A stretch of DNA of 64,000 nucleotides from Daucus carota subsp. sativus (taxonomy: Eukaryota; Streptophyta; Magnoliopsida; Apiales; Apiaceae). The stretch is from NCBI RefSeq assembly GCF_001625215.2, contig NC_030384.2, forward strand, positions 40,768,390 to 40,832,389. The letters are read 5' to 3'. A program made the translations under genes and the position numbers. Positions 25,393-56,542 of this stretch are shown piece after piece (position 1 is the stretch's first letter; every line of letters begins with the position of its first letter). The notes beneath the pieces are model-generated. The model worked only from the letters and a program-made list of their open reading frames with translations, did not search any database and had not been told where the DNA came from.

Positions 25393-28300
25393 TCAACGAG
25401 GTAATATCATCTTCACATTGTGCAGCTCATCTATAGCTTTCCCCTGGTTGTAGACGGACTCAAAAGCATGCATCCACACATTGGCGAAACCAGTAACTGC
25501 CTGGAAAACATGCGGCAATCCCATTTGTAGATTGTTCAAAGTCATTGACCTTGTAACGCTAACTGCCTTTTCATATTTAGCTCTTTCATCCTCTGACTTC
25601 ACCCTAAGAATCGCGACCTTGGCACGCTTGTCTGCAACTGGATTCTTGGCCCCAGATGAATCAGGCATTGAGAAAGGACCATACTTGTTTTCTAATGCTC
25701 GTAGCTCACTTGTCTTCTTTTCAAACTCTTTGAAGACAGATTCCGATTTCTTCTTTTGCTTGTGCTCTTCTGCTTGTTGCACAACGATACCATGGATTAC
25801 GGTTAACAAGCTATTGATTCCCTCTGATGCAACTTTGTCCGGAGCATGATCGATAGCAAGATGCCATTCTTCGCAAAGGGAGTAGATAGCAGAATCTTGT
25901 TTCGTTTTGGAGACCGAGTTGTCGTTGAACTGGAAAAGACTAAGCCTTAGCCACCCTGAAAGCGACTGTATGTATTCTCGTTGAGCCTTTACTATGTTAC
26001 AGAAGGATATATGCCATTGCTGCACCTCAAGCTCAAGTTGAAGGGTAGATTGCCTGTGAATTTCGGAGGTTGGATTATTAGACGGGGTAGTGTTAAGGTA
26101 TTTGAGTTGCTGAACTATGTGCATCTGGACCTGGTGGCACTCATACATGCTCCTCCACATGCACATAAATCTGTTTAACAGGCAAAAAAACATAGTTAGG
26201 AACTAAAATTTTATTATTCTAATTTAAGACTACAAGCTGATAAAATTGGAGATAAATCCAGCACATAGTTGCCACTAATTGCTGAAAATGATAAATAAAA
26301 GCTAAAGCAGCAAGGTACATTACATGCAAATAAGAAAAAGTGTAAAAGTAGTATAGCAAAAAAAGTGTGTAAAAGTAGTCAAAAGAAGTGATCATGCACA
26401 GTACTACTGTGAAGAATAATGCTGACTTAACCAGTCAAAGGAGTCTTCCTACCCATACTACTCATGCTTAATAATCTCTGATCTGGGTACTGGGTTTCTG
26501 GCTAGTGCGCTGTCCCACATCCCAACTTATTATATCTATCTATCTATATATATATATATGAATAAATACACCCACACACAAAATACATGTAAATATCTAT
26601 TTATAATTTTATATACATGCAATATAAGACCTGCAAGAGATCCAGATATGATTTTTATTAGAACAATAAGAATGTCCATGAAAAGAAAACATGTAGTATC
26701 CCTTGCTCCTCTCACCGGATGTCAAGGACATGTACTTTAGTGTGTTGATTATCAAATAAATGCACAAAAAGAAAAAATAGCATTCAACTATTTCTTCAGT
26801 ATTTTACATTTCTTTCCCTCTAAGAATGAGTCTTTTATTCTTGGTGAATAGATCAGATATATTGCTTTAATATTTACATTATGAGGTATGAGTCACTTGA
26901 ATTTTATTCCGATCTTTTGGTGCGGTTTTGTGAATTTTAGTAGGGCCTCTGATCTTTTGGCGTTGCATTCACATTTCACAGAAAACAATGACCAGTGCAG
27001 AGTTCAACTAATGATTTCGAAGGATATTTTTTTGTTGGGATGAAAGCAAACTTTAATCATAACAAGTTTAAAGAAAGACATTAAAACTACTGAAAAGAAA
27101 GACTAACCCTTTTACAAGCTCAACAAGTTGTGGGTACAGCTCTGATTCTCTCAGTTTGATAATTTCAGCAGAGGTAGTTTCAATGCCTTGTGAAGCAACC
27201 ATCATCCTTGATTCCAATTTCTCAACCTCTTTCTTAGATTTTTCAGTCTTTATATAATCTGCCCGCTTCATCTCTAGCCGCCTCAGCTGCTTTACCCTTT
27301 TTTCATGTTCCATCTTAAGAGTCTCGGCATTCTAACAGAAAGCATATCATTTAATTGTATAATCAAGATCACAAGGAGAAGTCAAAAAGCTTAACAATTT
27401 ACATTAACTATCAAAACCTTGATTAAGGTAACTACTATGATGAGGGGACAACTTTATCAACATCTACTTGTTGTAACAAGATTTGGGGGATCACATCTTG
27501 TATAAATCCCAAGAAACTGTGTGAAACTTATACATCCGCAAACTCCTATGTACATTCCGAGAGAAATAAGCCAATAGATAATACACTTAACGACAAAGAT
27601 ATCAAGTAAAACTTGAATTATGAAAGATACGGTTTTAAGATATTATAATACCTTAACCTCCAAATAAAGTTTTTTCTCCCAAGCATAGAGTCTCTCTACT
27701 GTAGAACAATGACTCCCATTCAAATTATTGTGAAGCACTTCTTCATTAAACTTCCCAAACCCATCCATTTTTGAACTGGAACTCCCCCATGTCCACAACA
27801 ATGGACTCAAACTCTTCCCATAACCATAAACTTTCCCTGCAAGCAGAACAAAGGCAAAATATGGCTGTAACTATAGAATACTAAAGTCGCGCTTCCTATA
27901 ATCATTAAATATCACAAATGACTAAATCCAGATTGAATACTAAATTTAAAGGCCCATTTTCTTAAGAGTATATAAACGGTGAATGGGTTTAGTAATCAAG
28001 AATTTCAACATAGATTAGTACACCTACAGGTCCCAGAAAAGAGTGTGTTTCTAAGCATGTACAGAGCAGCCAGCAGGTGCATTAAACTCAAGCTTACAAT
28101 TTTTACTTGGAAACCAACCAATTTGAAAGCATCTTACCAAATTGTCAAACTCAAAACAAACCTAAATTATTACTGTACATATTGTAACCTGTAACATAAA
28201 TTCAACTCTAAATACAAAAAACATGGTTTGAAAAAGGACATACAGGACAAAGAACACAACAAAGCACATCATAAGCACAAGTGCTTATAAATAAAACAAC

Positions 28301-29061
28301 ACACAAACAAAATGTGCTTACATGTGCAAACCATAAACAGATCTAAAGTACACATGTTTTCTATTCTCTTAATTCAAAGGCATTCATTTTAGTACACATA
28401 TACATACAAATATATATGTAGTGATTTATGTATAATAAATAAAAGTACCTGTGGATCTTTGGTCGGAAAAACTAAAACTAGGAACCTCCAGCAAGGACGA
28501 AAGCTGATTCCCCGACCCCGCCGCCCTCAAAAAATACTCATCCAGCTCCTTTATGATCTCCACCAGCTCCTTACTCTTGGCCGACACCACCACCGCCATC
28601 TCCGCCGCCGGCTCCGGCGCCGTCGCCCTCACCGGCGTCATAACCACCTCCGACATCGTCGCCGTCGTCTCCTCCCAGTCCTCCTCCGTCGCCGCCGGCG
28701 ACGACGCCGGCATAAACGGGTCCCAGAAATCCCAACTCCCCTGCACCGGCGGAGGCGGCGGCGGCGGCCGCACGGCCGACGACGAAACGGTCGTAGACGT
28801 GCCCCACGAAGTGGGGCTCATCGGTGGCTGCTGCGGCCCCGGTACAGACACTGGCGGCGCCGTAACAGGGTGGTGCAGAGGCGTCTCCGCCGTAGCGAAC
28901 TGAAGTAAAGCAGATCCGGTGGCTTTTAGTGAGCGGAGATACATTGTATGTGAAGACGACAAAGCCTGTCTCGCTTCCACAAATGTTTTCATGTATCTCT
29001 TTCTCCCTCTGCATCTCGTCACCATCTCTTCTCTCTCAATCTTCGTTAAACAACTCCCCAT
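25393..29061 (-). CDS. DUF630/DUF632 protein (APSR1/NRG2-like)
   Basis: Predicted exons, minus strand: 29061-28449, 27836-27652, 27331-27108, 26170-25393; phases join, 599 residues. The start MGSCLTKIEREEMVTRCRGR is the DUF630 signature, with Gly2 and Cys4 as likely myristoylation and palmitoylation sites and so membrane attachment. Residues about 60-130 are Pro/Ala/Ser-rich (seven prolines in a row), encoded by a strikingly GC-rich block at 28560-28880. DUF632 starts near residue 210 (KVYGYGKSLSPLLWTW) and includes YAWEKKLYLEVKNAE, long charged helices (EHEKRVKQLRRLEMKRADY), MWRSMYECHQVQ, WHLAIDHAPDKVASEGI and a coiled coil near the C-terminus. Relatives include APSR1 (root growth under low phosphate) and NRG2 (nitrate signalling). 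The biochemical activity is unknown. Which subgroup this one joins is not clear from sequence alone. Confidence 0.88.
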
Positions 29062-30939
29062 CTTCACTCACAAATCTCCTTCGTATCTACAGATTATATT
29101 TATATTTTATACATTACTTCATCTTCATTACACGAACAGACAATGTTGATAGCAGTGTGTTATTTTATAGTAACAGTCATAGTAGTAGTGTTAGAGTGGT
29201 GGACGTTGGAAACCGTGCCATGTTGGAGTAGGGAGAGTTTTGAGTTGTTGACGAAAATGCCCTTGGGTTTTTGTTTTGTTTGTTTGTTGCAGTGTGTGTA
29301 ATGCACATGGGGCAGGTTAAAAAGAGGTACGGAGAGGACTGTGCATTCAGCATGCTTTTGTGTTAGAAGGGTAACTATGTAAACTTTGGGTTTCAACGGA
29401 CATTCCACTGTATGTTTGCTTTTAAATTTTAAATTCGTGTTTTTGTTTTAACAAAATCAATACTCCTTCCGTTTCAAATTAATTGCATTAAATAATCAAA
29501 ATATGTGGAGTAAAATTGATTTAATAAATATAAATAATAGATATGTGGAGTAGGATTGACTTTGGAAATATGATTTTGTATTGAAAGTTGAAGTGGATAA
29601 GTAATTTAAAACATTTTTTTTTTAAAAGTGGGCATATAAATTGAAACGGAGGGACTAACTGGGATTGCCTTGTTTTATACAGAATCACCGTTTCCTTGCA
29701 ATAAACAATAGAATCACAATTTAATTCATTGATTGATTGTAAAGCTCTGGGCATTAATTGTTAGTATCAACCTATTATCATCAAGAATGAGTATAAATAG
29801 GGACGGGATATACAACTTCAATTTACATGTTAATTAACAATTTATAAGATTTATTTGAATTGTGTGTTCTATTTGTTGCATATTACTATCAACATATTGA
29901 AATTTTTTCTCCAAATATCGTAGTATCTTGGGCACAACTAGAAATTATATTATATGCACATATAAACAAGATATAAACTAATATTTAATCCAAAATATAA
30001 AACTCATTATTTTTATTTAATCTTTATTCAATTCAATCTTTATGAAATTATAATACATAATTTTATTTGTAGTAAAAAAAATAAAAGTGATTGATATGCT
30101 ACTTTGCTATCATATAAATGTTATCTAAATATTTGATTTTGATAAACTAAACAAATTACTCATATTTTAGTTTGTATACAATATAATACCAAAATAATAA
30201 AATATTTTATTATAACGTTAAATTTCTAAAAAAATTTGGTCCGAAATCAACTCAGAAACATGAAGCAGTATCGATATATTTAAATATAATTAATAAATTA
30301 TAAATTTATCCACTGCTTTCTTATTAAATTTACTAAAAGCTATAGCTGCATATGGCCAGATCATAACTCATAAGTAGTGTATTGTAAAAATTTTATGGCA
30401 CACGAACCCCACTTTCATTTCCGTATATCTTTTAAATTAAATATTATCGGGACAAAATAATGCTGCGAATCTACCAAGAAAACAAGATCTTGGAACTCTG
30501 CAACTGACAATAAAGATTTAAATAAGCATATTTTGGACCCACCTTTTGGTTTAATTTAAAATATTAATTATTTATAAATAAAATAAATTTAATAACAATT
30601 TATCAATTTGTTGCATATTTGTTAGCTAAATAGTAATTGATACATAGTCATGTTATCAACGATAAAAGTGATATAGTTCATCTCATCAAAAAGTGGTTGT
30701 AACATGCTAGAAGGCATAACGCTCGTAAATTGCATCTGAGTTCTGCATATTTTGTATTATGAATGAACTCCTTCATACTCACATATTCTTTCTTTGCTTC
30801 AACACGTTCAGCATATATTCATTTCTTCTTTCTGGATGTCTCTCAAAGTACTAATGAAGCGCAAGATTGTATAAATACATATATGCAGGGTAGTGTTAAA
30901 TTTGCAGCAATACTTTCTTGTATAAGATATACAGTAGCA
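29062..30939. other. Divergent spacer between DUF632 and APX genes
   Basis: This holds both promoters. 29062-29160 is probably the leader of the DUF632 gene. A MITE occupies about 29461-29656. 29800-30760 is very AT-rich. An in-frame ATG at 30883 lies upstream of the chosen APX start. No other gene was seen. Confidence 0.4.
29461..29656. mobile_element. Stowaway-like MITE
   Basis: Left TACTCCTTCCGTTTCAAATT and right end AAATTGAAACGGAGGGACTA are complementary terminal repeats with TA at the outer edge, of the plant CTCCTTCCGTTTC type. The inside is AT-rich with a partly repeated ATATGTGGAGTA word and no coding capacity. Confidence 0.7.
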
Positions 30940-35127: not shown

Positions 35128-36134
35128 ACAAAATATTAACAGCATCATTATAATACATTCAAGAAAGTGATGTTGTTTCATTCCCTATATTTATGTATAT
35201 AACTTATATAATAAATTGCTAATGAATGAGATATTTTGAGTTTATAAATTATGTAGATCTTAACATTAAATACACTTGTGTCTAGTATGTTAAAAGAACA
35301 CGAAGAACAATCTCTAACTTTATTGAATAGTAAAAACACACTAAAGATTTAATGAGACTATGTTCTCTCTAAAAATATTGGTTCACAAGCGATCTTTCAC
35401 GTGATTACATTATTTTACTCTTTTACAGAGTATACATAGTTTTGCTTCTGTTGGTGGATTATCAAATGGCCTTGAATATTTATTTGTTTATGATTTTTTT
35501 AATTAAATTGTATTCAATTGCTTTTGAGATGTCAATGATGGCGATATGAATTTGGACTCGTAATATTATCTGATAATTTCAGTGATGACGGTGATGGATA
35601 ATGTAAGTAATACGATAACTAGATCATTTTCTTTTTTAAACGATGAAGTAATTTGATAGATTGATTTTCAAGCATTGGTTTACGTTTTAGTTTGTTATAC
35701 TTTTATTTCCCCCCTCAATAGATTTAATTACAGTAAATAATTTCCGAGTCAATTTATTTCAAGTATAAATAAATCATTATAAAAGCCAAATGTAAACCCT
35801 AAATATTAACAACTGTTAATTACATTTCAATTATTTATTTTATTAAACTGATTCCTAGGTTTTAGGGTTTTACGGTCCTAAAGCCTAGAAATAATTAGAG
35901 TTTGGGGTCTAAATGCCTTAAACCTTCATCTTAAACCCCAACCACCAGCCAATTTAATTTGAAGTATATTTTTTTATTAAAAAAAATACTTAAAACATAA
36001 TTTCGTGTCGCGTTTGCGTCTTTATGAAACTAGAAAACGCTATTTTGTATAGCATTTTCGTTTTTAATAAAACGAAAAACGCCACATGATATAGGGTTTT
36101 GCTGTTTCTTTAAAACGTAATTTCATACGCGTTA
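35128..36134. other. Spacer downstream of APX
   Basis: 3' UTR of the APX gene followed by AT-rich DNA. At 35990-36130 AAACGC/AAACGT words recur in both orientations (ACGCTATTTTG, AACGAAAAACGCC), a short decayed repeat next to the LINE remnant. No gene seen. Confidence 0.4.
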
Positions 36135-36779
36135 ATGAATGATATTGAGCACCATGTGTGGCAAAACAAAACGTTAACAACTCAAATGGCGATGCAGTGG
36201 AGTGTTCAAGTTAAACAATGGAGAGATAGTCAGCAGCTGAAACTTTCGAGAAATAATTCTTCTGTGCAAAATAATGAGGCTAAAGTGTTTAAATGGCATC
36301 CTCCAAGTGAAGGCCGAATGAAGGTTAATGTTGATGCTCACATAGTTGCAGGATGTTCATGGTTCTCCTGTGGCTTAATTCTTAGGGATCATCAAGGGAA
36401 GTTTATTCGGGCAAGAACTCATAGATTCGCAGGCATAGTTCCGGTAGTCGAAGCCATTGGAGTATTGGAAGCTACCAGGTGGATTAACTCACTGGGCATG
36501 CACGATGTGGATATTGAGAGTGACTCTTTAGTCACAGTCCAAGCTATTAACAAGGCAGTAGAGAATTATCTGGAAGTTGGTGTGGTTTTTCAAAAATGTC
36601 GTGAGTTTTTGAATGATCGTAGAAACATTTCGGTGTCATTTGTTAAAAAGCAAGTGAACAAGGTAGCTCATTTAATTGCTAGAGTACCTTGTGAAGTTAA
36701 TTGCTTTATTGATCTGATGACTCCTCCACGGTCTGTGTTGGAGCCCCTTGAAAGCGAGAGTTTGATTATGATTATCTAA
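36135..36779 (+). pseudogene. LINE-derived RNase H-like ORF (5'-truncated non-LTR retrotransposon end)
   Basis: Open frame of 214 residues. A linker (HHVWQNKTLTTQMAMQWSVQ) is followed by FKWHPPSEGRMKVNVDAH, the start of the plant RVT_3 RNase H-like domain. Acidic residues lie at the expected places: Asp in VNVDAH, Glu in VVEAIGVLEATRW, Asp in DIESDS. It ends with VNKVAHLIAR, the usual closing motif. This region normally forms the C-terminus of plant LINE ORF2 proteins. No reverse transcriptase precedes it. 18 bases after the stop is an A-rich tract (about 36795-36816), consistent with the 3' end of a truncated LINE. The frame is undamaged, so a recent insertion or a captured single-domain protein are both possible. 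Confidence 0.75.
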
Positions 36780-47349: not shown

Positions 47350-47354
47350 CATTA
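47350..47354. repeat. Target site duplication, left copy (CATTA)
   Basis: CATTA directly before the TG of the left LTR, repeated at 56538-56542 after the CA of the right LTR. Five-base duplications are standard for LTR retrotransposon integrases. Confidence 0.9.
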
Positions 47355-48367
47355 TGTTGATAGAGGAATTTGGTAATCAACAAAGATGAGGTTCATGGCC
47401 GGAATCAAGATCCGTGACGGTGGTTTTGGTCGCCGGAGAGTGGTGGTTGTTTGTTTTAGGGGGTGGCTGAGATTAGGGTTTTGAGTTGGTCTCACGTGCT
47501 CTCAACTCATGATCCCCCAATGTGCCTACGTACCCCTATTTATAGGGGATCAAGCCATACGTAGTTCTATTGGACCAAGAGTCCTAGTTTGATCAGGACT
47601 AGGCCTCTTGGCGATAAGGTCGGAGATAGGCCGAAGGCCCATCTTGGAGAATCCTACTCCTGTTAGAATTAGTCTTGAGTATGACTACCCCAGACTCCTA
47701 ATCCAAATAGATCACGGATTCAACGATATCTCCACTACGAGAGATAGCATCTACCACGACTCTTATGGAGAAGTTATCTGGGAGAGCCATGGCTAACCCC
47801 TCGAGGTGCAGGGACATGTCCTCACCTCTCGGTGAGGTCTTCATCTTCAAACAAGGTAGACAAGGAGCCAAATTACACGATCGTCTCAATCCCCCGATGA
47901 GGGCTAACTCACCAGAATACAGGATCCAGACATATGATCGGCCTTCATATTACCCCGGAGGGCCTTCAAGAATCATGATCACCTCAAGCCCCCACACAAG
48001 GGTTAACTAGGCAGATTACAGGATTGAGGATTATAGATCATGCCCGGATGAGCCCGGGAACTGTCAGATGAGCCTGACAACTACCAAATGAGCTTGGTAA
48101 CTACCAAATGAGCTTGGTAACTAGTCTTCATATCCCCCGAAAGGGTCGTCACGGAGACTCACTCATCCTCCCTCACACATCATTTATTCACATCGGTAGC
48201 TTTGCCAAGTCAGAGGACGCGCCCTAACAGAGAGGACACGCCCTCCCTCTCCTTGATCTTTCTCACCTTCATGCCAGCGTCTTGGGACAGGGGGCCGCGT
48301 CTCCCGGAATATCCCCGGGAAAGACGCGCCCTGCCCTTTATCTTCTCATCCAAAAACCAACACAACA
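47355..48367 (-). repeat. LTR (3' LTR by element orientation)
   Basis: 1013 bp, apparently identical to 55525-56537: small open frames fall at the same offsets with the same translations, and I saw no mismatch by eye. A minus-strand TATA box TATAAATAG lies at 47536-47544 (plus strand CTATTTATA). Near 48070-48125 a TACCAAATGAGCTTGGTAAC unit is tandemly repeated. Confidence 0.93.
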
Positions 48368-48383
48368 AGTACTCCCCAGATTC
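48368..48383 (-). other. Polypurine tract next to the 3' LTR
   Basis: On the minus strand the bases just before the LTR read AATCTGGGGAGTACTT, the only purine-rich run at an LTR border. This is where a plus-strand primer is expected. Confidence 0.6.
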
Positions 48384-48634
48384 GGTTGTCATCGAAGATG
48401 TCAAGGGAATCTTCGTTCTCTCCCTTCATCAAAGATGTCTTCTTTAACCTACACCTTGAGTCGTCCTGCTTCCTAGATACTTGACCAGGCGCGCCCTCTC
48501 CCACAGGCGCGTCCTCTTTCGTTCAAAATTACCGGGTCCTGTCCTTTGCGATGACGCGGCTATTCAAATTTGATATTTAAAATCGAAGTAGGCCGTACCT
48601 GAGAGGACAGCTGTCAGCGATCCACCCTCCTTGC

Positions 48635-48643
48635 TATAAATAT
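48635..48643 (+). promoter_or_regulatory. TATA box of the antisense gene
   Basis: TATAAATAT, followed by a pyrimidine-rich CTTCACTTTATCTTCTC start region about 30 bases on. A likely leader intron runs from about 48786 (CCCAG/gtacgt) to an acceptor at about 49249 (TTTACAG/CTGG), before the ATG at 49315. This promoter faces against the LTR promoters. Confidence 0.6.
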
Positions 48644-49314
48644 CTCTTACCTTTTCTTCTTCACTTTATCTTCTCCCATCTTGCGTTTTTTCTCTTACCA
48701 GCAAGAACTTTTCCGACCACGATTGCCGGCGTACCACTGTTTCTAAGCGCAAACTGACCGGGGAGATCATTCACCACGTTCCCAGGTACGTTTCCTCATC
48801 CTTTTTATCGATTTTCACCGATTACATTGTTAGATTTGTTCAAATGACCCCTCAACTTTCTTGCTCATTGCTTGTTATGTTCTTGACTGTTTGTGTATAT
48901 ACATATATGTGTATCTATACTCGTAAAACCTCATCGTACCTCCCTTTGATTCCCCAACTTCGCAAGTCGTACCACCTGAACCTGTTTATGTGCTGTCAAC
49001 CAAACAACCCTCTCCTTCCCTAGGCGCGCCCATTAGGAAAGACGCGTCCTTCCGAACGTCACCTGTCCTTCCCTTCCTCTTATCACCACCAGGGCGCGCC
49101 TTCATCCTGAGGCCCTTGTCCCTTTCCAAAAATAACTCTTCATAAGGTAGACACATCCACACACTGATATCTTTCATTTGTAGCACACGCATCTGCCCAT
49201 ATTTATGCTTTTCTCAAAGGGCGCGCCCTCACCACCTATTTGTTTACAGCTGGCAGACGGGGGCGCATCCTTTGCTTTCTACCCGTTCAGAGACTTCCTT
49301 GCCCTCCTGCTGAA

Positions 49315-51614
49315 ATGAAATCTTCTTACTTAGCTACTCCCCGGGCTACCAATCAGATTATTCACCCAATCGAGATCACTAGCTCTCCTGCTACTGGCGA
49401 TCAGTCGATGGACTATGACACCCCATTCGAGGAATGGACTGATACCTCTGAGGGCGCGCCTGCTCGCAGAGGTAAAGGAAAGATATATCAACTGATCTCT
49501 TCTTCATCAGACCACAGTGTCCCTTCTCCCCCAAGTGATAAAGACTCTGACTATGAGCCCCCAAAGGGCACGTTGTTTCGTGAAGATGCTACAGAAGAGG
49601 ATTTTTCCCAAGGCGCGCCCGGAGGGCGAACACCCGCCATTCCACCTTCACCTGAATCCTCTCCTGAACCCTACGTCCATCCTCCTATAGAAGAATGGGA
49701 AGAAGACGTGGACTGGTCCGAATATGGTGACATGGAGCTTTCTTCCACGATGGTCGAGGAAATAAAAAAGAATAGGGGCAAGTTAAACTGCGTAGACCAA
49801 CCTTCCACGCTTTCCTGGGAAGAACTAGAGTGGACGATGGATTACTACGATCAGAAAGGAACAGCAGTAGTCCCTCTTGAAGAGATGAGGGCACATCGTT
49901 TCGACATAGGGAACTGCAGGATTCCTCGCATGGTTCTGACCCCCAGGCATGTAAGCCTCGGAGCAGGCGTGCCCCTCCATCCTTATTTTGAACAAATTTT
50001 AGAGTGGTTCGACATTGCTCCTATCCAGTTGTCGCCTAATTCGTACAAACTGGCGGCAGGGCTATACATCTTGTACAAGGAGGAAGGATATGGCGCGCCC
50101 TCTATGGAGGAACTGAGTTTTTTCTTCAGACTTACTAAGAACTCTCCTGGCTACTTTTACCTTACCATACGATCTCAACACCGTCTTAAAGGTTTCGGCG
50201 AAGGGCGTGCCTCCCATGTGAAAAGGTGGAGGGACCCCTTTTTTTATGTTTATAACACCAAAAGAATGAGGACGCAATTTAACATCTCCCCTGGTAAGAA
50301 TACTCTTTTCAAGGTGCGCCCTTATTTACCCTTCCTTCACTAATTTGTTCCTCATCTTATTAGCGGAACGTGGTATGCCGTCTCTTGATAACGAAGCCCT
50401 TGAGAGAGCACAACTCATCCTCCACTTGCCCTCTCAAAGGAAGAATATAACAAACTTGGTGACCACTTCTGCTTTAATCGAGGCCGGGTTCCTTTCTCCC
50501 ATGATAGGTACCAAAGTGGGTCCGACCACCTTCAGGAATGGAAGACCTCTTAAGAATAAAGGAAGCAGGGTTCTCAAGGCAGAACCTGAGGAATACACGT
50601 CTGACGCAGCCTCCCCGAGGGGAGGATGTGGGCGCGCCCGGACGACGCAAAATGAAGGCGCGCCCCTTTTTCAATATGCGCATTATACATTATTTGCATG
50701 TGTGTACATCCCTTTTTATAGCCATCTCTGGTGTACCCAAGATAACACATTCTTTACTATGTGCAGGTATGGCCGAAGTTCCTTCATTCTTCTCAAGGAA
50801 GAAGCCAAATCTGGGGGAGGACGCGTCTCTCTCGCCCGGCTTTCCAAAGCGGGGCGCGTCTAACCGTGTTTTCCAGAAACCACCCTCCAAACTGGATACC
50901 GTTTCCACGGGGACACCGCGCTCTAAAAAGCCTCGAGTCAGCAAGAAACACAACCCTGCTCAACCTTCAAGCCTGGCTTCAAGGGTCCTAGGCGACATCG
51001 GCGACACCGTCCTATCTGATAACGAGGTGCAGGCGTGGCGCGCCAAGTTAGACTCCGAGAAAGATGATTGGATTCTTAAGGCAAGCTGTGAGATGCTGAT
51101 CCACAATATGGATCGTGATGACGCTAAAGCTGCCCAGGAGGCGCGCCTTTCTAACCTTGAGAAGGAGAACTCCCAGCTCAAAAGGGAGGCTAAGCAGCAT
51201 GACAAAGCTCTCAAGAAGGCCGAGGATGGCAAGTTAGCCGTCGAGAAGGAACTCAACATTGAAAAGGCGCGTTTTGAGAAAGAGGTGGCTGATCTCAAAC
51301 TGGAGAATTCCTCTTTGGCTGATGACAACAAACAACTCTTGGAGGATAAGGAGAAGGCGGTCGAGACATCGTTCACAGAGGGACTATTCAGCTATGTTGC
51401 TACCTTCCTCTCCGGGGAACCAAACTACAATTGGCTTCCGAACTTTGGGAAGGCTGCGGCTGATTTCATGGCTGAATTTCCTTCTAAGAATCCAGAGTTG
51501 ATGGCCGCCAAGAAGGCAGAGTTAGCTGAGACGCTGGCCAAAGAGGCCACAGCCGAGGGGGCGCGCCCAGGGGGCGGCACTCAAGCTGGGGACATGTCCA
51601 AGGACGCGCCCTGA
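49315..51614 (+). CDS. Antisense ORF protein of the LTR element (putative gypsy-type transposon domain plus coiled coil)
   Basis: Predicted exons 49315-50293, 50364-50507, 50536-50703 and 50767-51614, about 712 residues; the donor at 50703 is the least certain. The N-terminal 130 residues are acidic and Ser/Pro-rich (WTDTSEGAPARRGKGK; EEWEEDVDWSEYGDMEL). About residues 200-330 resemble the plant 'putative gypsy type transposon' domain (PF04195): HPYFEQILEWFDIAPIQLSP, YKLAAGLYILYKEEG, then TKNSPGYFYLTIR. After a basic linker (GTPRSKKPRVSKKH) a long heptad-rich coiled coil follows (LSNLEKENSQLKREAKQHDK onward), then SYVATFLSGEPNYNWLPNFG and a Lys/Ala tail. The gene reads opposite to the LTRs. 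Many Gly-Ala-Pro or Arg-Ala residues come from GGCGCGCC motifs inside the exons. Function is unknown; such proteins are often annotated as transposase-like, but none of the catalytic motifs of a transposase is visible. Confidence 0.7.
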
Positions 51615-52012
51615 GTCGCTTAACTTTAATCTTTTGACGGTGCAGGCCCGTTCTAAGCCTTGCAAGTTGTATTATAAACTAATTTTCTGGATTCGTGACT
51701 GCATGTTCTTTTGATTGCATGCTCAACTTTAATCTTTTGGCGGCGCGCCCATGCTCTTTCGCATTTCTTAATTTATGGGGAGGGCGCGCCCTTATGAATA
51801 TTATGCTTTATATTTAGTATCACCGTCCCTTCTCGCATTGCTTACATGTAGCTTTCATGATGCCATCAGTTAATGTTATTATTTATCGGAGGGCGCGCCT
51901 TCAGAGGGTCATGCCTATCTCCCATTATATCTAGGGCGCGCCTTTTCATAACATGCAGAACGAAGCTGTGTTTTAGCTCTTTTAAGTCAAGGGACGTGTC
52001 CTGGGAAGACGC

Positions 52013-52168
52013 GTTCTTCCCTTATCTTGTCTTCAATTCTCCTTACTGGACAGGAGACCGCGTCTCCCGAGCCATGTCTGGAGAGGGCGCGTCCTTCCCT
52101 TATCTTGTCTTCAATCCTCCTTACTGGACAAGAGACCGCACCTCCCGGGCCATGTCTGGGGAGGGCGC
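52013..52168. repeat. Two 78 bp tandem units
   Basis: The unit containing CTTATCTTGTCTTCAATTCT and GCCATGTCTGGAGAGGGCGC occurs at 52013-52090 and 52091-52168 with a few changes, and each unit ends in GGGCGCGTCC. Confidence 0.8.
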
Positions 52169-52612
52169 GTCCTCCCCTCCACATGATATACAAAAACGGC
52201 TACAACACCTCGGAAGAGTCGTCGTATCCCCCGGAGGGGTCGTCATATCCCCCCGGAGGGGTAGGTCTTCCTATCCCCGGAGGGACGGTCTTCGTCTCCC
52301 TCAGAAGGGTTGTCTCAGCGAATGTACACTCTCCCATAAGAAGAGCCTTCTTACAACACATCAGACAGGTCCTTCTTTAACATGAGGTCGCGCCCCCGGG
52401 GAGGCGAGGACACCCCGTCAAAGGCACGCCCTTGGTCTTCATCTCATTGTCAACTTCTTACAAGGGACGCGCCCCTCGGTCACCTCCGAAGAGGGCGTGC
52501 CCTCCTCCACATATTACAGGACGTGGGTGGACGGAGGTCGGTCGCGTCTCTCCATCAACACTCTCAAGTAAGGCGTCCCTCCTTGTGACTCGGAGGACGC
52601 GTCCTTTTCAAG

Positions 52613-52860
52613 CAACACCAAGGGTCGGTCGCGTCCTCCCTTTATAAGCAGGAGGACGCGTCCTCTTCATGGGACACGTGTGACCTGGAGGACACATCCC
52701 TCCTTCCGACACGGAGGACGCGTCCTCTTCATTAAGATACGCAACATCGGCGGATCAGTCGCGTCACGGAGGGCTGCGCCCTTCCGTTCAGACTAGTCTC
52801 TTCAAGGGTCGGTCGCGTCCTCACTTTATAAGCAGGAGGACGCGTCCTTCCTTTATATAG
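52613..52860. repeat. Duplicated GGTCGGTCGCGTCCTC block
   Basis: AAGGGTCGGTCGCGTCCTC followed by CTTTATAAGCAGGAGGACGC appears at about 52619-52668 and again at about 52805-52853, separated by 186 bases. It is rich in GGACGCGTCC palindromes. Confidence 0.7.
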
Positions 52861-52940
52861 GACTCTTAGCCCAATTCATGTCTTACTTAGTTAAACTAAG
52901 TACATACTTGGCCCAACAAGGACCTAGCCAAATTTGGCTA

Positions 52941-52990
52941 TAACAAGTACTCCCCAAATTTTCTTGATATTGGAGATATCAGGGAAATTT
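52941..52990. other. Relic PPT/LTR junction inside the element
   Basis: TAACA/AGTACTCCCCAAATT followed by GGAGATATCAGGGAAAT resembles the true border at 48363-48410 (CAACA/AGTACTCCCCAGATT followed by GAAGATGTCAAGGGAAT). It appears to be an older copy of the LTR end and polypurine tract, now internal. Confidence 0.6.
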
Positions 52991-53819
52991 TTACTCCATA
53001 CCACACATCCTCTTCCGAGAGCGCGTCCGCGCATAGAGGCGTGACGTAAGCCACTTCTATTCCTCGACATTCCAAGATGCAGGCTGTGCACAAGCCTTGC
53101 ATGTATATAATGTCGGTGTCTTTGATCATTTAGCAAAGTTGCTAAGCATGAGGCTGTCGCGTCTTCTTGATGTGTTCATAAATAATAAGCAATCTTTATG
53201 TAGACAAAAGAAAACAGGGGGCACGGCCTATCTGTCGTTGACAGTGGCGCAGCTTCGCTTATTCCTTCCAAAGGACACATTCAACCATAACATTCGCGCC
53301 AATGAACTTCAACAAAAGAAGGGCGCGCCTTCGCTGTGCGAAGGTTTGTGGCTTTTTTTTTTTTTTTTTTTTTTTAGCCTTAGTGTATCCATGGTACCTG
53401 GGAATAGTAAATATAAGGCGCGACTTACAGAGTGGCGCTGCCTTGTTATAACATGACCCCTTTTAATTCTTTTTGTTAAAGAATTGCCTAAGCAGAGGGC
53501 GCGGCTGATGGCGCTGCCTTGCAATATTTCTTTTCTTTCAAGGACTGTATAAGCAGAGGGCGCAGCCTTACTTGTAATGTGGGCTCTTTTGATCTTTTCC
53601 AAGGATTAAGTAGAGGGCGCGACCTTTGGCGCGGCCTTTGGCGCAGCTTTACTTTTTCACGCGTGAATCACTTGCTTAAGAAAATCAAGAGGACCACTCC
53701 CCAGTCCATACATCTTCCCATATGGGGCATCACGAATCTTATCGTGGTTTACATAACTCCGGTGCATCGCACAGGTCCCAGAGCTCATAGCTCAATGGGG
53801 AATGAATAGTATAAAATGT

Positions 53820-54033
53820 TATCCAGAGCATATCATGGATATGTAAGATCCAGAGCGTATCATGGATGCGCAAGTATAATGTCCAGAGCGTATCATGGAT
53901 GCGCAAATATAGTATCCGGAGCGTATCATGGATATGTAAATAATCATAGCATCCAGAGTAGATCGTGGATGACATCCAGAGCGTATCATGGATGGTTAAA
54001 ATTCATAGTACCCAGAGCTGGTCATGGATAATT
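53820..54033. repeat. Tandem repeat, about seven units of 23-37 bp
   Basis: Units start ATCCAGAGCGTATCATGGAT with variable tails (ATGTAAG, GCGCAAGTATAATG, and so on). The plus-strand translation shows repeated SRAYHG but has no plausible gene context, so it is treated as non-coding. Confidence 0.8.
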
Positions 54034-55080
54034 TGGTAACCTTTGAAAGGGCTTAAGTGTACCTTGATCAAAGACCTTGCAGGTATCATGCTACGTTCCT
54101 GTAGAACGGAGGGCGCGCCCTCATCAAGATGGACAGCTCCTTTAGCATGTTGGACTTGACCTGCACTTTATCATGTATACGACTTAATACTGATGGTCAG
54201 TGTTACCTCACGACGCGCCCTGTTAGGGGAAGACGCGTCCTCCCAAATTATCAACCCTGGAAACATGACTTTGGAACTCGGGGTGCGTCCAACTAGGAGG
54301 AGGCGCGTCTTTGAAGCATCTCCCTTCTCAACCTTATTATCCTGAGGGCGCGCCCTCATGCGCTTCCTCAAGTGATGAGTACTTCCGAGAGGGCGCGCCC
54401 CAGGGAGGGACGTGACCTCTTCAAGACTAGTGAGCTCCTTCCTGAGTATATTTGTCTTCACAAAATATCATATGAAGCAATTAATGCATCAGACATACCA
54501 GAGGGCGCGCCCTGTCAGAGGGAGGCGCGCAATTCGTTCTCTGATAAAATACTGGTTGGATATGGCGTACCCCTTTAGGAGGGCGCGCCTTGTTGGAGGA
54601 AAGTGCGACTACTCCTCACGGAGAAGAGGTGTACTCCTCTTAAAGGTAACACCATATTACCTGTGAATTTACACATGTGGTAGTCTTAGGGAACCAAATA
54701 CTGGGGGAGTTTAGTATTTACCTGAGGGCGCGCCCGGTCAGGGGAAGGCGCGCATCCTTACGACTTTTCGAGCTAGGTTCCATCTCAATAGCTCGCCCTT
54801 CGTAACTTTCCCGTTCATATCATCACATGTGGTCAGGCCTTCAACATGCGCCTCTCGCGAACCTCAAATTACTTGCTCTGGGGAGGGCGCGCCCCTTCAG
54901 AAAACCGTTGAGGCTTCCAGGGAGGCGATCTCCTTCTCGTAAAGACTCAAACCACAACAGACTTGTTAGCAATAACATGCGAAAGCATTGTGAGAATCTT
55001 ACCCGGAGGTGCGCCTTCTTCGGAGGTGTTAGGGAATTCGTTCCTCACGGTGGTAGTCGAGCACCACATCACTTGGAGGC

Positions 55081-55240
55081 GTACCCTGTCAGGGGGAGGT
55101 GTACCCTGTCCAGGGGAGGTGTACTCTATCCGGGGGAGGTGTACCCTGTCCAGGGGAGGTGTACTCTATCCGGGGGAGGTGTACTCTGTCCGGGGGAGGT
55201 GTACTCTCTCCGGGGGAGGTGTACTCTGTCCGGGGGAGGT
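55081..55240. repeat. Eight tandem units of 20 bp
   Basis: Exact 20-base period: GTACTCTGTCCGGGGGAGGT with small variants (GTACCCTGTCCAGGGGAGGT). Eight units are followed by a partial ninth. It lies 280 bases inside the 5' LTR of the element. There are no spacers, so it is not a CRISPR-like array. Confidence 0.92.
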
Positions 55241-55504
55241 GTCAGGTCTCCGAAAATCACATCCTTCGCTGACTCCCCGGTCCAGAAAACCCTGATCACA
55301 AATTAGGTTACCTCCTAGAATTTCGTTGATGATTGTCCTCCTTCAAACTCCCGATGGAGATATCGTCCTTTTTCTGAAAAAGTAGATGAAGGTCTCCTCC
55401 TCTTTTGTGCTCTAGCCATCGCCCTGCCGGAAAACGCTCCTCCTCTACGTGCGAATCTCCGTCGTGTGACATCTCTTCCTCCTAAGATGAAGATCTTGAA
55501 TAGC

Positions 55505-55522
55505 CCCTCCTTCTAGCGCCAA
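55505..55522 (-). other. Primer binding site next to the 5' LTR
   Basis: On the minus strand the LTR ends CTATCAACA, then AAT, then TGGCGCTAGAAGGAGGGG. The TGG start pairs with a tRNA CCA end. I cannot name the tRNA with confidence. Confidence 0.6.
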
Positions 55523-55524
55523 TT

Positions 55525-56537
55525 TGTTGATAGAGGAATTTGGTAATCAACAAAGATGAGGTTCATGGCCGGAATCAAGATCCGTGACGGTGGTTTTGGT
55601 CGCCGGAGAGTGGTGGTTGTTTGTTTTAGGGGGTGGCTGAGATTAGGGTTTTGAGTTGGTCTCACGTGCTCTCAACTCATGATCCCCCAATGTGCCTACG
55701 TACCCCTATTTATAGGGGATCAAGCCATACGTAGTTCTATTGGACCAAGAGTCCTAGTTTGATCAGGACTAGGCCTCTTGGCGATAAGGTCGGAGATAGG
55801 CCGAAGGCCCATCTTGGAGAATCCTACTCCTGTTAGAATTAGTCTTGAGTATGACTACCCCAGACTCCTAATCCAAATAGATCACGGATTCAACGATATC
55901 TCCACTACGAGAGATAGCATCTACCACGACTCTTATGGAGAAGTTATCTGGGAGAGCCATGGCTAACCCCTCGAGGTGCAGGGACATGTCCTCACCTCTC
56001 GGTGAGGTCTTCATCTTCAAACAAGGTAGACAAGGAGCCAAATTACACGATCGTCTCAATCCCCCGATGAGGGCTAACTCACCAGAATACAGGATCCAGA
56101 CATATGATCGGCCTTCATATTACCCCGGAGGGCCTTCAAGAATCATGATCACCTCAAGCCCCCACACAAGGGTTAACTAGGCAGATTACAGGATTGAGGA
56201 TTATAGATCATGCCCGGATGAGCCCGGGAACTGTCAGATGAGCCTGACAACTACCAAATGAGCTTGGTAACTACCAAATGAGCTTGGTAACTAGTCTTCA
56301 TATCCCCCGAAAGGGTCGTCACGGAGACTCACTCATCCTCCCTCACACATCATTTATTCACATCGGTAGCTTTGCCAAGTCAGAGGACGCGCCCTAACAG
56401 AGAGGACACGCCCTCCCTCTCCTTGATCTTTCTCACCTTCATGCCAGCGTCTTGGGACAGGGGGCCGCGTCTCCCGGAATATCCCCGGGAAAGACGCGCC
56501 CTGCCCTTTATCTTCTCATCCAAAAACCAACACAACA
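55525..56537 (-). repeat. LTR (5' LTR by element orientation)
   Basis: Second copy of the 1013 bp LTR, with the same TG...CA ends and minus-strand TATA box (55706-55714). As the 5' LTR it would drive the minus-strand genomic transcript towards 48368. Confidence 0.93.
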
Positions 56538-56542
56538 CATTA
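56538..56542. repeat. Target site duplication, right copy (CATTA)
   Basis: CATTA directly after the right LTR, identical to 47350-47354. Confidence 0.9.

Follow-up and report, generated by a model that had tools for sequence, protein, structure and literature searches.

A young pol-less, probably Retand-type retrotransposon of carrot with an antisense TRP28-type gene and a selected palindrome as that gene's candidate target

The window analyzed here, a 64,000-nucleotide stretch of carrot (Daucus carota subsp. sativus) DNA (C4:40768390-40832389, from a genome of 441,086,747 bases on 11 contigs), holds a long terminal repeat (LTR) retrotransposon at positions 47355 to 56537 that lacks gag-pol, carries one intact gene antisense to its own orientation, and is strewn with the palindrome GRCGCGYC. 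In the exons of that gene the palindrome is selected as DNA: relatives keep 93-97% of the synonymous sites that lie inside it and 39-41% of those outside, and the conserved footprint measures 8 bp. The whole is best explained by a very young, non-autonomous element of Retand type (Tat, Ty3/gypsy) that would be served by helpers in trans and whose palindrome would be the target of its antisense protein, a reading that we put at roughly 0.45, jointly for the classification and the self-recognition.

GRCGCGYC was found at 41 dispersed sites within 47355-55524. Its core GGCGCGCC occurred at 24 sites in the element, where 200 dinucleotide shuffles gave a mean of 0.07 and a maximum of 1, and at none in the remaining 54,807 bp of the window. 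Genome-wide, GGCGCGCC was counted 5383 times versus 337 for the reversed word, and GRCGCGYC 8823 times versus 1840. A logo of 64 CGCG sites resolved to the palindrome AGGRCGCGYCCT. Among the first 50 GGCGCGCC matches listed, all on C1, 38 were grouped by eye into five clusters and 12 were solitary; two of these clusters coincided with relatives already known, L054 and L015, and among the matches listed none lay in the 6.2 kb of L015 (4052931 to 4059128) where an RVT_3 domain lies. The motif is dense, associated with the element, and selected, its confinement to the family being judged from the window, the genome-wide counts, and those first 50 sites. The preliminary description of this element did not mention the palindrome. 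As far as literature searches show, the selected palindrome is undescribed: none yielded a description, and a query joining GGCGCGCC with retrotransposons returned only papers on other subjects.

Selection was seen at four-fold degenerate sites of the first coding exon (exon A) and the last coding exon, at a synonymous divergence from the larger relatives that was saturated or nearly so. In exon A, 117 of 121 cells inside palindromes were identical in comparisons with 24 larger relatives versus 820 of 2021 outside, and in the last exon (20 larger relatives) 138 of 148 versus 452 of 1158, pooled cells that are not independent because the larger relatives are akin to one another. Taken singly, 19 of 20 relatives having both exons gave p<0.05, as did all 20 when L013 replaced the window as reference. 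For four-fold sites that form CpG outside palindromes, identity was 0.33 in exon A and 0.39 in the last exon. The footprint spans 8 bp: identity was 0.89-0.97 out to 3.5 bp from the palindrome center, 0.55 at 4.5 bp, 0.38 at 5.5 bp, and 0.39 (background) beyond 15.5 bp, with deviations in sparse distance bins (0.09 at 8.5, 0.71 at 11.5, and 1.00 at 12.5, the last with 2 cells). Upstream, from the polypurine tract (PPT) to the first intron (48368-49290), palindromes were 0.957 identical to L013 and L033, and other positions 0.808. The window itself is without three exon A palindromes that 22, 23, and 25 of 27 aligned sequences have; two of these missing sites (49966 and 50204) read GGCGTGCC, as after CpG deamination.

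It is quite improbable that this is simply an ordinary non-autonomous Retand element, its GC-rich words a by-product of composition or duplication and its antisense gene a passenger in pol-less copies. Such elements, and antisense TRP28 genes with them, are already known (PMC11963269), some palindromes do belong to tandemly duplicated sequence, namely the 78-bp repeat at 52010-52178, and in L042, a recently inserted copy, exon A is disrupted. For the exon sites, the 8-bp four-fold footprint tells against neutrality, as do codon shuffles that preserve the protein and codon usage: six palindromes were observed in the last exon (mean 0.57, maximum 4; 0 of 2000 shuffles reached 6) and three in exon A (mean 0.32; 1 of 2000 reached 3). 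CpG retention speaks against a by-product as well, being 32 of 36 inside palindromes versus 59 of 122 outside in comparison with L013; the corresponding counts were 27 of 30 versus 71 of 114 for L033, 67 of 71 versus 216 of 259 for L042, and 66 of 70 versus 219 of 249 for L039. The sites are also irregularly spaced, at intervals of 18-790 bp.

Retroviral dimer signals make use of perfect palindromes of the kind GCGCGC, and the sites might by that token act in RNA, as kissing loops for dimerization or as packaging signals. This idea is disfavored and, in our estimate, very unlikely: the 39 internal 8-mers were mostly paired, with a mean unpaired value of 0.16 on the sense and 0.19 on the antisense strand in 128-nt folds, where the high GC of the motif may account for part of the pairing. 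Only 1 of 39 sites per strand exceeded 0.6, versus 24 of 100 random sense-strand positions (mean 0.44).

Most likely, to judge by conservation and distribution, the palindrome is a protein-binding site on double-stranded DNA, because it is selected in exons and is also present in the intron, the flanks, and copies without the gene. Exonic sites fall in all three reading frames. A host factor is the main rival to the antisense protein as the binder. CAMTA proteins recognize CGCG boxes, and one of them might bind the palindrome and drive transcription of the element, leaving TRP28 to do something else. The core is indeed CGCG, and its commonest contexts among the 64 sites (GCGCGC 26, ACGCGC 12, ACGCGT 9) fit a CGCG box; a title within the reference list of PMC13290587 describes CAMTA as a family of proteins that bind DNA at the CGCG box. 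Against this, the conserved unit is palindromic and, at 8 bp, longer than a CGCG box, and the sites occur throughout the exons, the intron, and the 3' region instead of being concentrated in the LTR, which holds 2 of 41. We consider a host factor fairly unlikely.

The best candidate for the binder is the antisense protein itself, because no other protein gene was found in the family, a DNA-binding role has been predicted for TRP28 (PMC11963269), and the antisense protein of Grande is nuclear (PMC7264820). The gene has its own TATAAA at 48635, and its placement and orientation near the 3' LTR match the TRP28 arrangement of Retand elements. Of 29 loci, 28 have a GTNAG donor after exon A by a count of the printed contexts, and 11 have the stricter GTRAG. 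Searched genome-wide, the exon A protein gave 109 scored matches of 560 candidates, with identities from 100% down to 40%. At one of these relatives, L013 (C7:28186834-28190874), the antisense coding region lies in a single open frame of 876 codons, as though its introns had stayed open or been retained.

Against its relatives, the antisense gene is under strong purifying selection, with a median ratio of nonsynonymous to synonymous divergence (dN/dS) of 0.082 in exon A (40 usable of 351 pairs, the remainder being saturated or too close, and L042 excluded because its best match was too short) and of 0.098 in the last exon (79 usable of 276 pairs). For exon A of the window, dN was 0.103 and dS 0.948 against L013, and 0.059 and 0.691 against L033; for the last exon, dN/dS was 0.12, 0.16, and 0.11 against L042, L013, and L033. 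The suggestion made earlier that the antisense protein is under selection is thereby borne out between the element and its relatives; inside the pol-less family itself such selection is weakly shown. The earlier view of the gene as something unusual was not supported. It appears to be of a type, TRP28/Transposase_28, that Retand elements were already known to carry, and is hence not new: antisense TRP28 open reading frames (ORFs) are reported for 97% of the Retand clusters with recent activity, and non-autonomous clusters are reported as well (PMC11963269).

The anatomy of the element (Table 1) agrees with most of what had been proposed from its sequence. Base-by-base comparison of the two LTRs, described as identical, yielded 0 differences in 1013 positions, and with the perfect CATTA duplication the insertion is recent, as claimed. 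The primer-binding site (PBS)-like sequence TGGCGCTAGAAGGAGGGG, which begins with TGG and lies 3 nt inward from the 5' LTR, the weak purine-rich PPT CTGGGGAGTACT, and the LTR TATA-like box TATAAATA all face the minus strand, and the intact gene faces the plus strand, again as first described. On the plus strand the border between LTR and PPT reads AACAAGTACTCCCC, a word present in 7 of 11 plus-strand loci scanned. When 51615-55524 was translated in six frames, stops written as X, and scanned against Pfam, no gag-pol domain was found, five frames matching no family and the sixth giving a single chance-level match (E=0.09). No reverse transcriptase (RT) or integrase was thus detected in the element, its LTRs are identical, and its gene does not evolve neutrally, all in keeping with the preliminary description. 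The one label that does not fit is that of a large retrotransposon derivative (LARD). LARDs are by definition without coding capacity; the element resembles them as a long LTR element lacking gag-pol, but its intact antisense gene under purifying selection sets it apart, so that strictly it is no LARD.

Table 1. Positions of features of the element within the window
Feature	Position	Strand	Basis or remark
3' LTR (in element sense), 1013 bp	47355..48367	-	
5' LTR (in element sense), 1013 bp	55525..56537	-	
Target site duplication CATTA	47350-47354 and 56538-56542	n/a	
PBS-like site TGGCGCTAGAAGGAGGGG	55504..55521	-	
Weak purine-rich PPT CTGGGGAGTACT	48368..48379	-	abuts 3' LTR
LTR TATA-like box TATAAATA	near 47537-47550	-	direct sequence reading
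TATA box, 5' untranslated region (UTR), and predicted 5' UTR intron of antisense gene	48635..49314	+	predicted splice sites
5' UTR intron (predicted)	48786-49290	+	
First coding exon (exon A), 326 aa, TRP28/Transposase_28 region	49315..50293	+	ATG at 49315
Intron GT...AG (predicted)	50294..50363	+	
Second coding exon, 3' boundary approximate	50364..50638	+	relatives similar in frame B to ~50638
Last coding exon	50767..51614	+	stop at 51612-51614
Span of the 24 GGCGCGCC palindromes	48488..54893	n/a	
Displaced U3 start and old PPT of short-relative LTR, now internal	51977..52955	n/a	contiguous with the match to 47355-48237 in 7/7 short relatives examined
33-bp and related tandem repeats	53820..54029	n/a	
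Tandem array, 20-bp unit, 8.4 copies, near PBS	55075..55242	n/a	

Other copies of the pol-less family were sought in the genome, as had been recommended, and four further full-length insertions were found, with perfect and differing 5-bp target site duplications (TSDs; CTTTG, ATTAA, CTCAC, and AGTAC) and 0 to 3 substitutions per LTR pair. A 5-bp TSD was thus found in all five copies of this long family, as is general for plant LTR elements. The exon A protein is 100% identical among four copies, the window included. In the fifth and more diverged copy, L042, exon A is split across two frames with stops, yet just 2 of 1013 sites differ between its LTRs; an intact gene in cis was therefore not required for its recent insertion, which fits action in trans. 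In another copy, L039 (C1:19054294-19063502), the LTRs are at least 99.7% and the exon A protein 100% identical to those of the window and the internal region about 95%, a mix of near-identical LTRs and diverged interior that suggests recombination between copies.

A replication partner had been postulated, and candidates were recovered. A search with the L015 LTR turned up 12 larger relatives among the best 40 of 487 candidates. Their paired LTRs lie 11.2-12.5 kb apart and flank antisense loci whose proteins are 67-72% identical to that of the window. An LTR stretch 78-90% identical to the window LTR was present at 11 of the 12 loci; at L018 no such stretch was found in the sequence fetched. 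The AACAAGTACTCCCC border was seen in all four plus-strand members (L015, L019, L027, and L028), the only ones scanned for it. On the strand opposite the antisense gene, at least 7 of the 12 encode an RVT_3 (PF13456) RNase H domain (best 150 of 2325 candidates), in open frames of 2168, 2172, 1549, 2170, 2156, 2159, and 600 aa. We read this domain match as a putative marker of the additional RNase H (aRH) expected between RH and INT in autonomous Retand members, a domain that Ogre elements have as well (PMC6317226). By eye, none of the 12 contained a PF17921 match (best 150 of 2382 candidates) or a PF03732 match (best 150 of 3548 candidates). These relatives, about 12-13 kb long, are probably the helpers by which the window element would be copied in trans. 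L058 was rejected as a partner, the insert between its LTRs carrying copia-type frames (RVT_2, Retrotran_gag_2), and the insert of L052 held a 514-aa frame that matched no Pfam family. The copia-type frames of L056-L058 (C4:10220353-10250000) sit between two LTRs related to those of a short family.

This short family consists of non-autonomous relatives whose LTRs match 47355-48237 of the window LTR, with no continuation there of 48238-48367. None of the 11 short relatives contained in one stretch has a frame of 180 codons or more, and each of these has 7 to 11 GGCGCGCC sites; a twelfth, split across L052 and L053, holds the 514-aa frame mentioned above, in which no domain was recognized. All 7 short copies examined show the match to 47355-48237 joined directly to a match from 51977 or 52083 onward, followed next by the PPT sequence seen at window position 52942. 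Because of this direct junction, the block from 48238 to about 52082, with the U3 end, PPT, and antisense gene of the long element, sits within what in its relatives is LTR sequence. We think it rather likely that the block was gained by recombination into an LTR of the short type, leaving the U3 start and PPT as relics, a history with which the junctions and the approximately 38 bp of L043 that match both 48200-48237 and 51977-52014 agree. The reverse, an origin of the short family by deletion between two similar stretches, is possible; long and short copies separate in the LTR tree (support 0.999 for the long clade), which leaves gain versus loss unsettled. Either history is compatible with every functional explanation of the palindrome. 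Four further elements with related LTRs at a spacing of 4.27-4.6 kb (C1:37743665, C6:8461661, C4:33925262, and C4:27074972) are probably additional non-autonomous satellites.

Elsewhere in the window, an open frame of 221 aa at 36114-36779, outside the element, carries a reverse-transcriptase-like RVT_3 domain, and two minus-strand frames at 25393-29067, one with a DUF632 and one with DUF630/DUF632 domains, probably form one host gene.

Among known elements, the nearest in structure are those of Retand (PMC11963269, PMC6317226), which share with the window element an antisense gene, here of apparent TRP28 type, by the 3' LTR, a 5-bp TSD, tandem arrays, and non-autonomous members, and with its larger relatives the opposite-strand RVT_3. 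They differ in that the window family lacks any gag-pol and that a selected dispersed palindrome goes unmentioned in the accessible text of PMC11963269; that survey mined elements by RT, so that pol-less elements fell outside it. The window element is a previously undescribed pol-less member of a known element type. Maize Grande likewise has an antisense gene (gene23) with its own promoter, between pol and the 3' LTR (PMC7264820), but it is shown there with gag-pol, and the accessible text mentions no palindrome.

VANDALs are not LTR elements, and Spm is a DNA transposon; both offer parallels in function. The closest working analogue of the proposed self-recognition is VANC21: it binds a short motif that is densely repeated within the transposon family to which it belongs, and there it counters silencing (PMC5735166). 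A dense short motif, an element-encoded candidate binder, and possible action in trans are common to Arabidopsis VANDAL/VANC and the carrot element, whereas the VANDAL motif lies mainly in noncoding tandem repeats and its binding was shown (PMC5735166, PMC10398659). The carrot motif is palindromic, CpG-rich, also exonic, and mostly irregular in spacing, and is a putative binding site. Spm likewise encodes a protein, TnpA, that has been linked to demethylation of Spm itself (PMC10398659).

With these parallels, the antisense TRP28-type protein would recognize the GRCGCGYC palindromes of its own family in trans, and its reach would extend to copies without the antisense gene, given that short satellites and larger relatives also carry the palindrome. 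Such binding may control transcription or silencing of the element, and the larger relatives would supply the replication proteins by which it is copied. Several observations weigh against this reading, besides the kinship among comparators given above. Exon A matches PF04195 (Transposase_28) with E=1.3e-4 and 22.6 bits, under the curated cut-off of 26.2 bits, and structure prediction was unusable (mean pLDDT 36.0 for exon A and 41.6 for its conserved part). One comparator, L036, was not significant (p=0.064). Some palindromes outside the gene gave little: the two in the LTR were no better conserved against larger relatives than the rest (0.831 versus 0.885), and those of the 3' region showed a slight excess in short relatives (0.953 versus 0.936) and none in L013 and L033 (0.875 versus 0.883, on 16 motif bases). 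For the pol of the larger relatives, the analysis covered coordinates and frame lengths.

The role of antisense genes in plant retrotransposons has been called unknown (PMC7264820, PMC11963269). A palindrome selected at the DNA level, also in the antisense exons, is a concrete candidate target, by which that role becomes testable through binding. More generally, TRP28 of Tat/Retand elements may serve in self-recognition, binding the scattered GRCGCGYC palindromes sequence-specifically and relieving silencing in trans, a proposal drawn by analogy that we hold as tentative and rather doubtful. If true, TRP28 would be the LTR-retrotransposon counterpart of VANC, exploited by gene-less and pol-less satellites, and its action would explain why the antisense gene is retained in nearly all recently active Retand elements.

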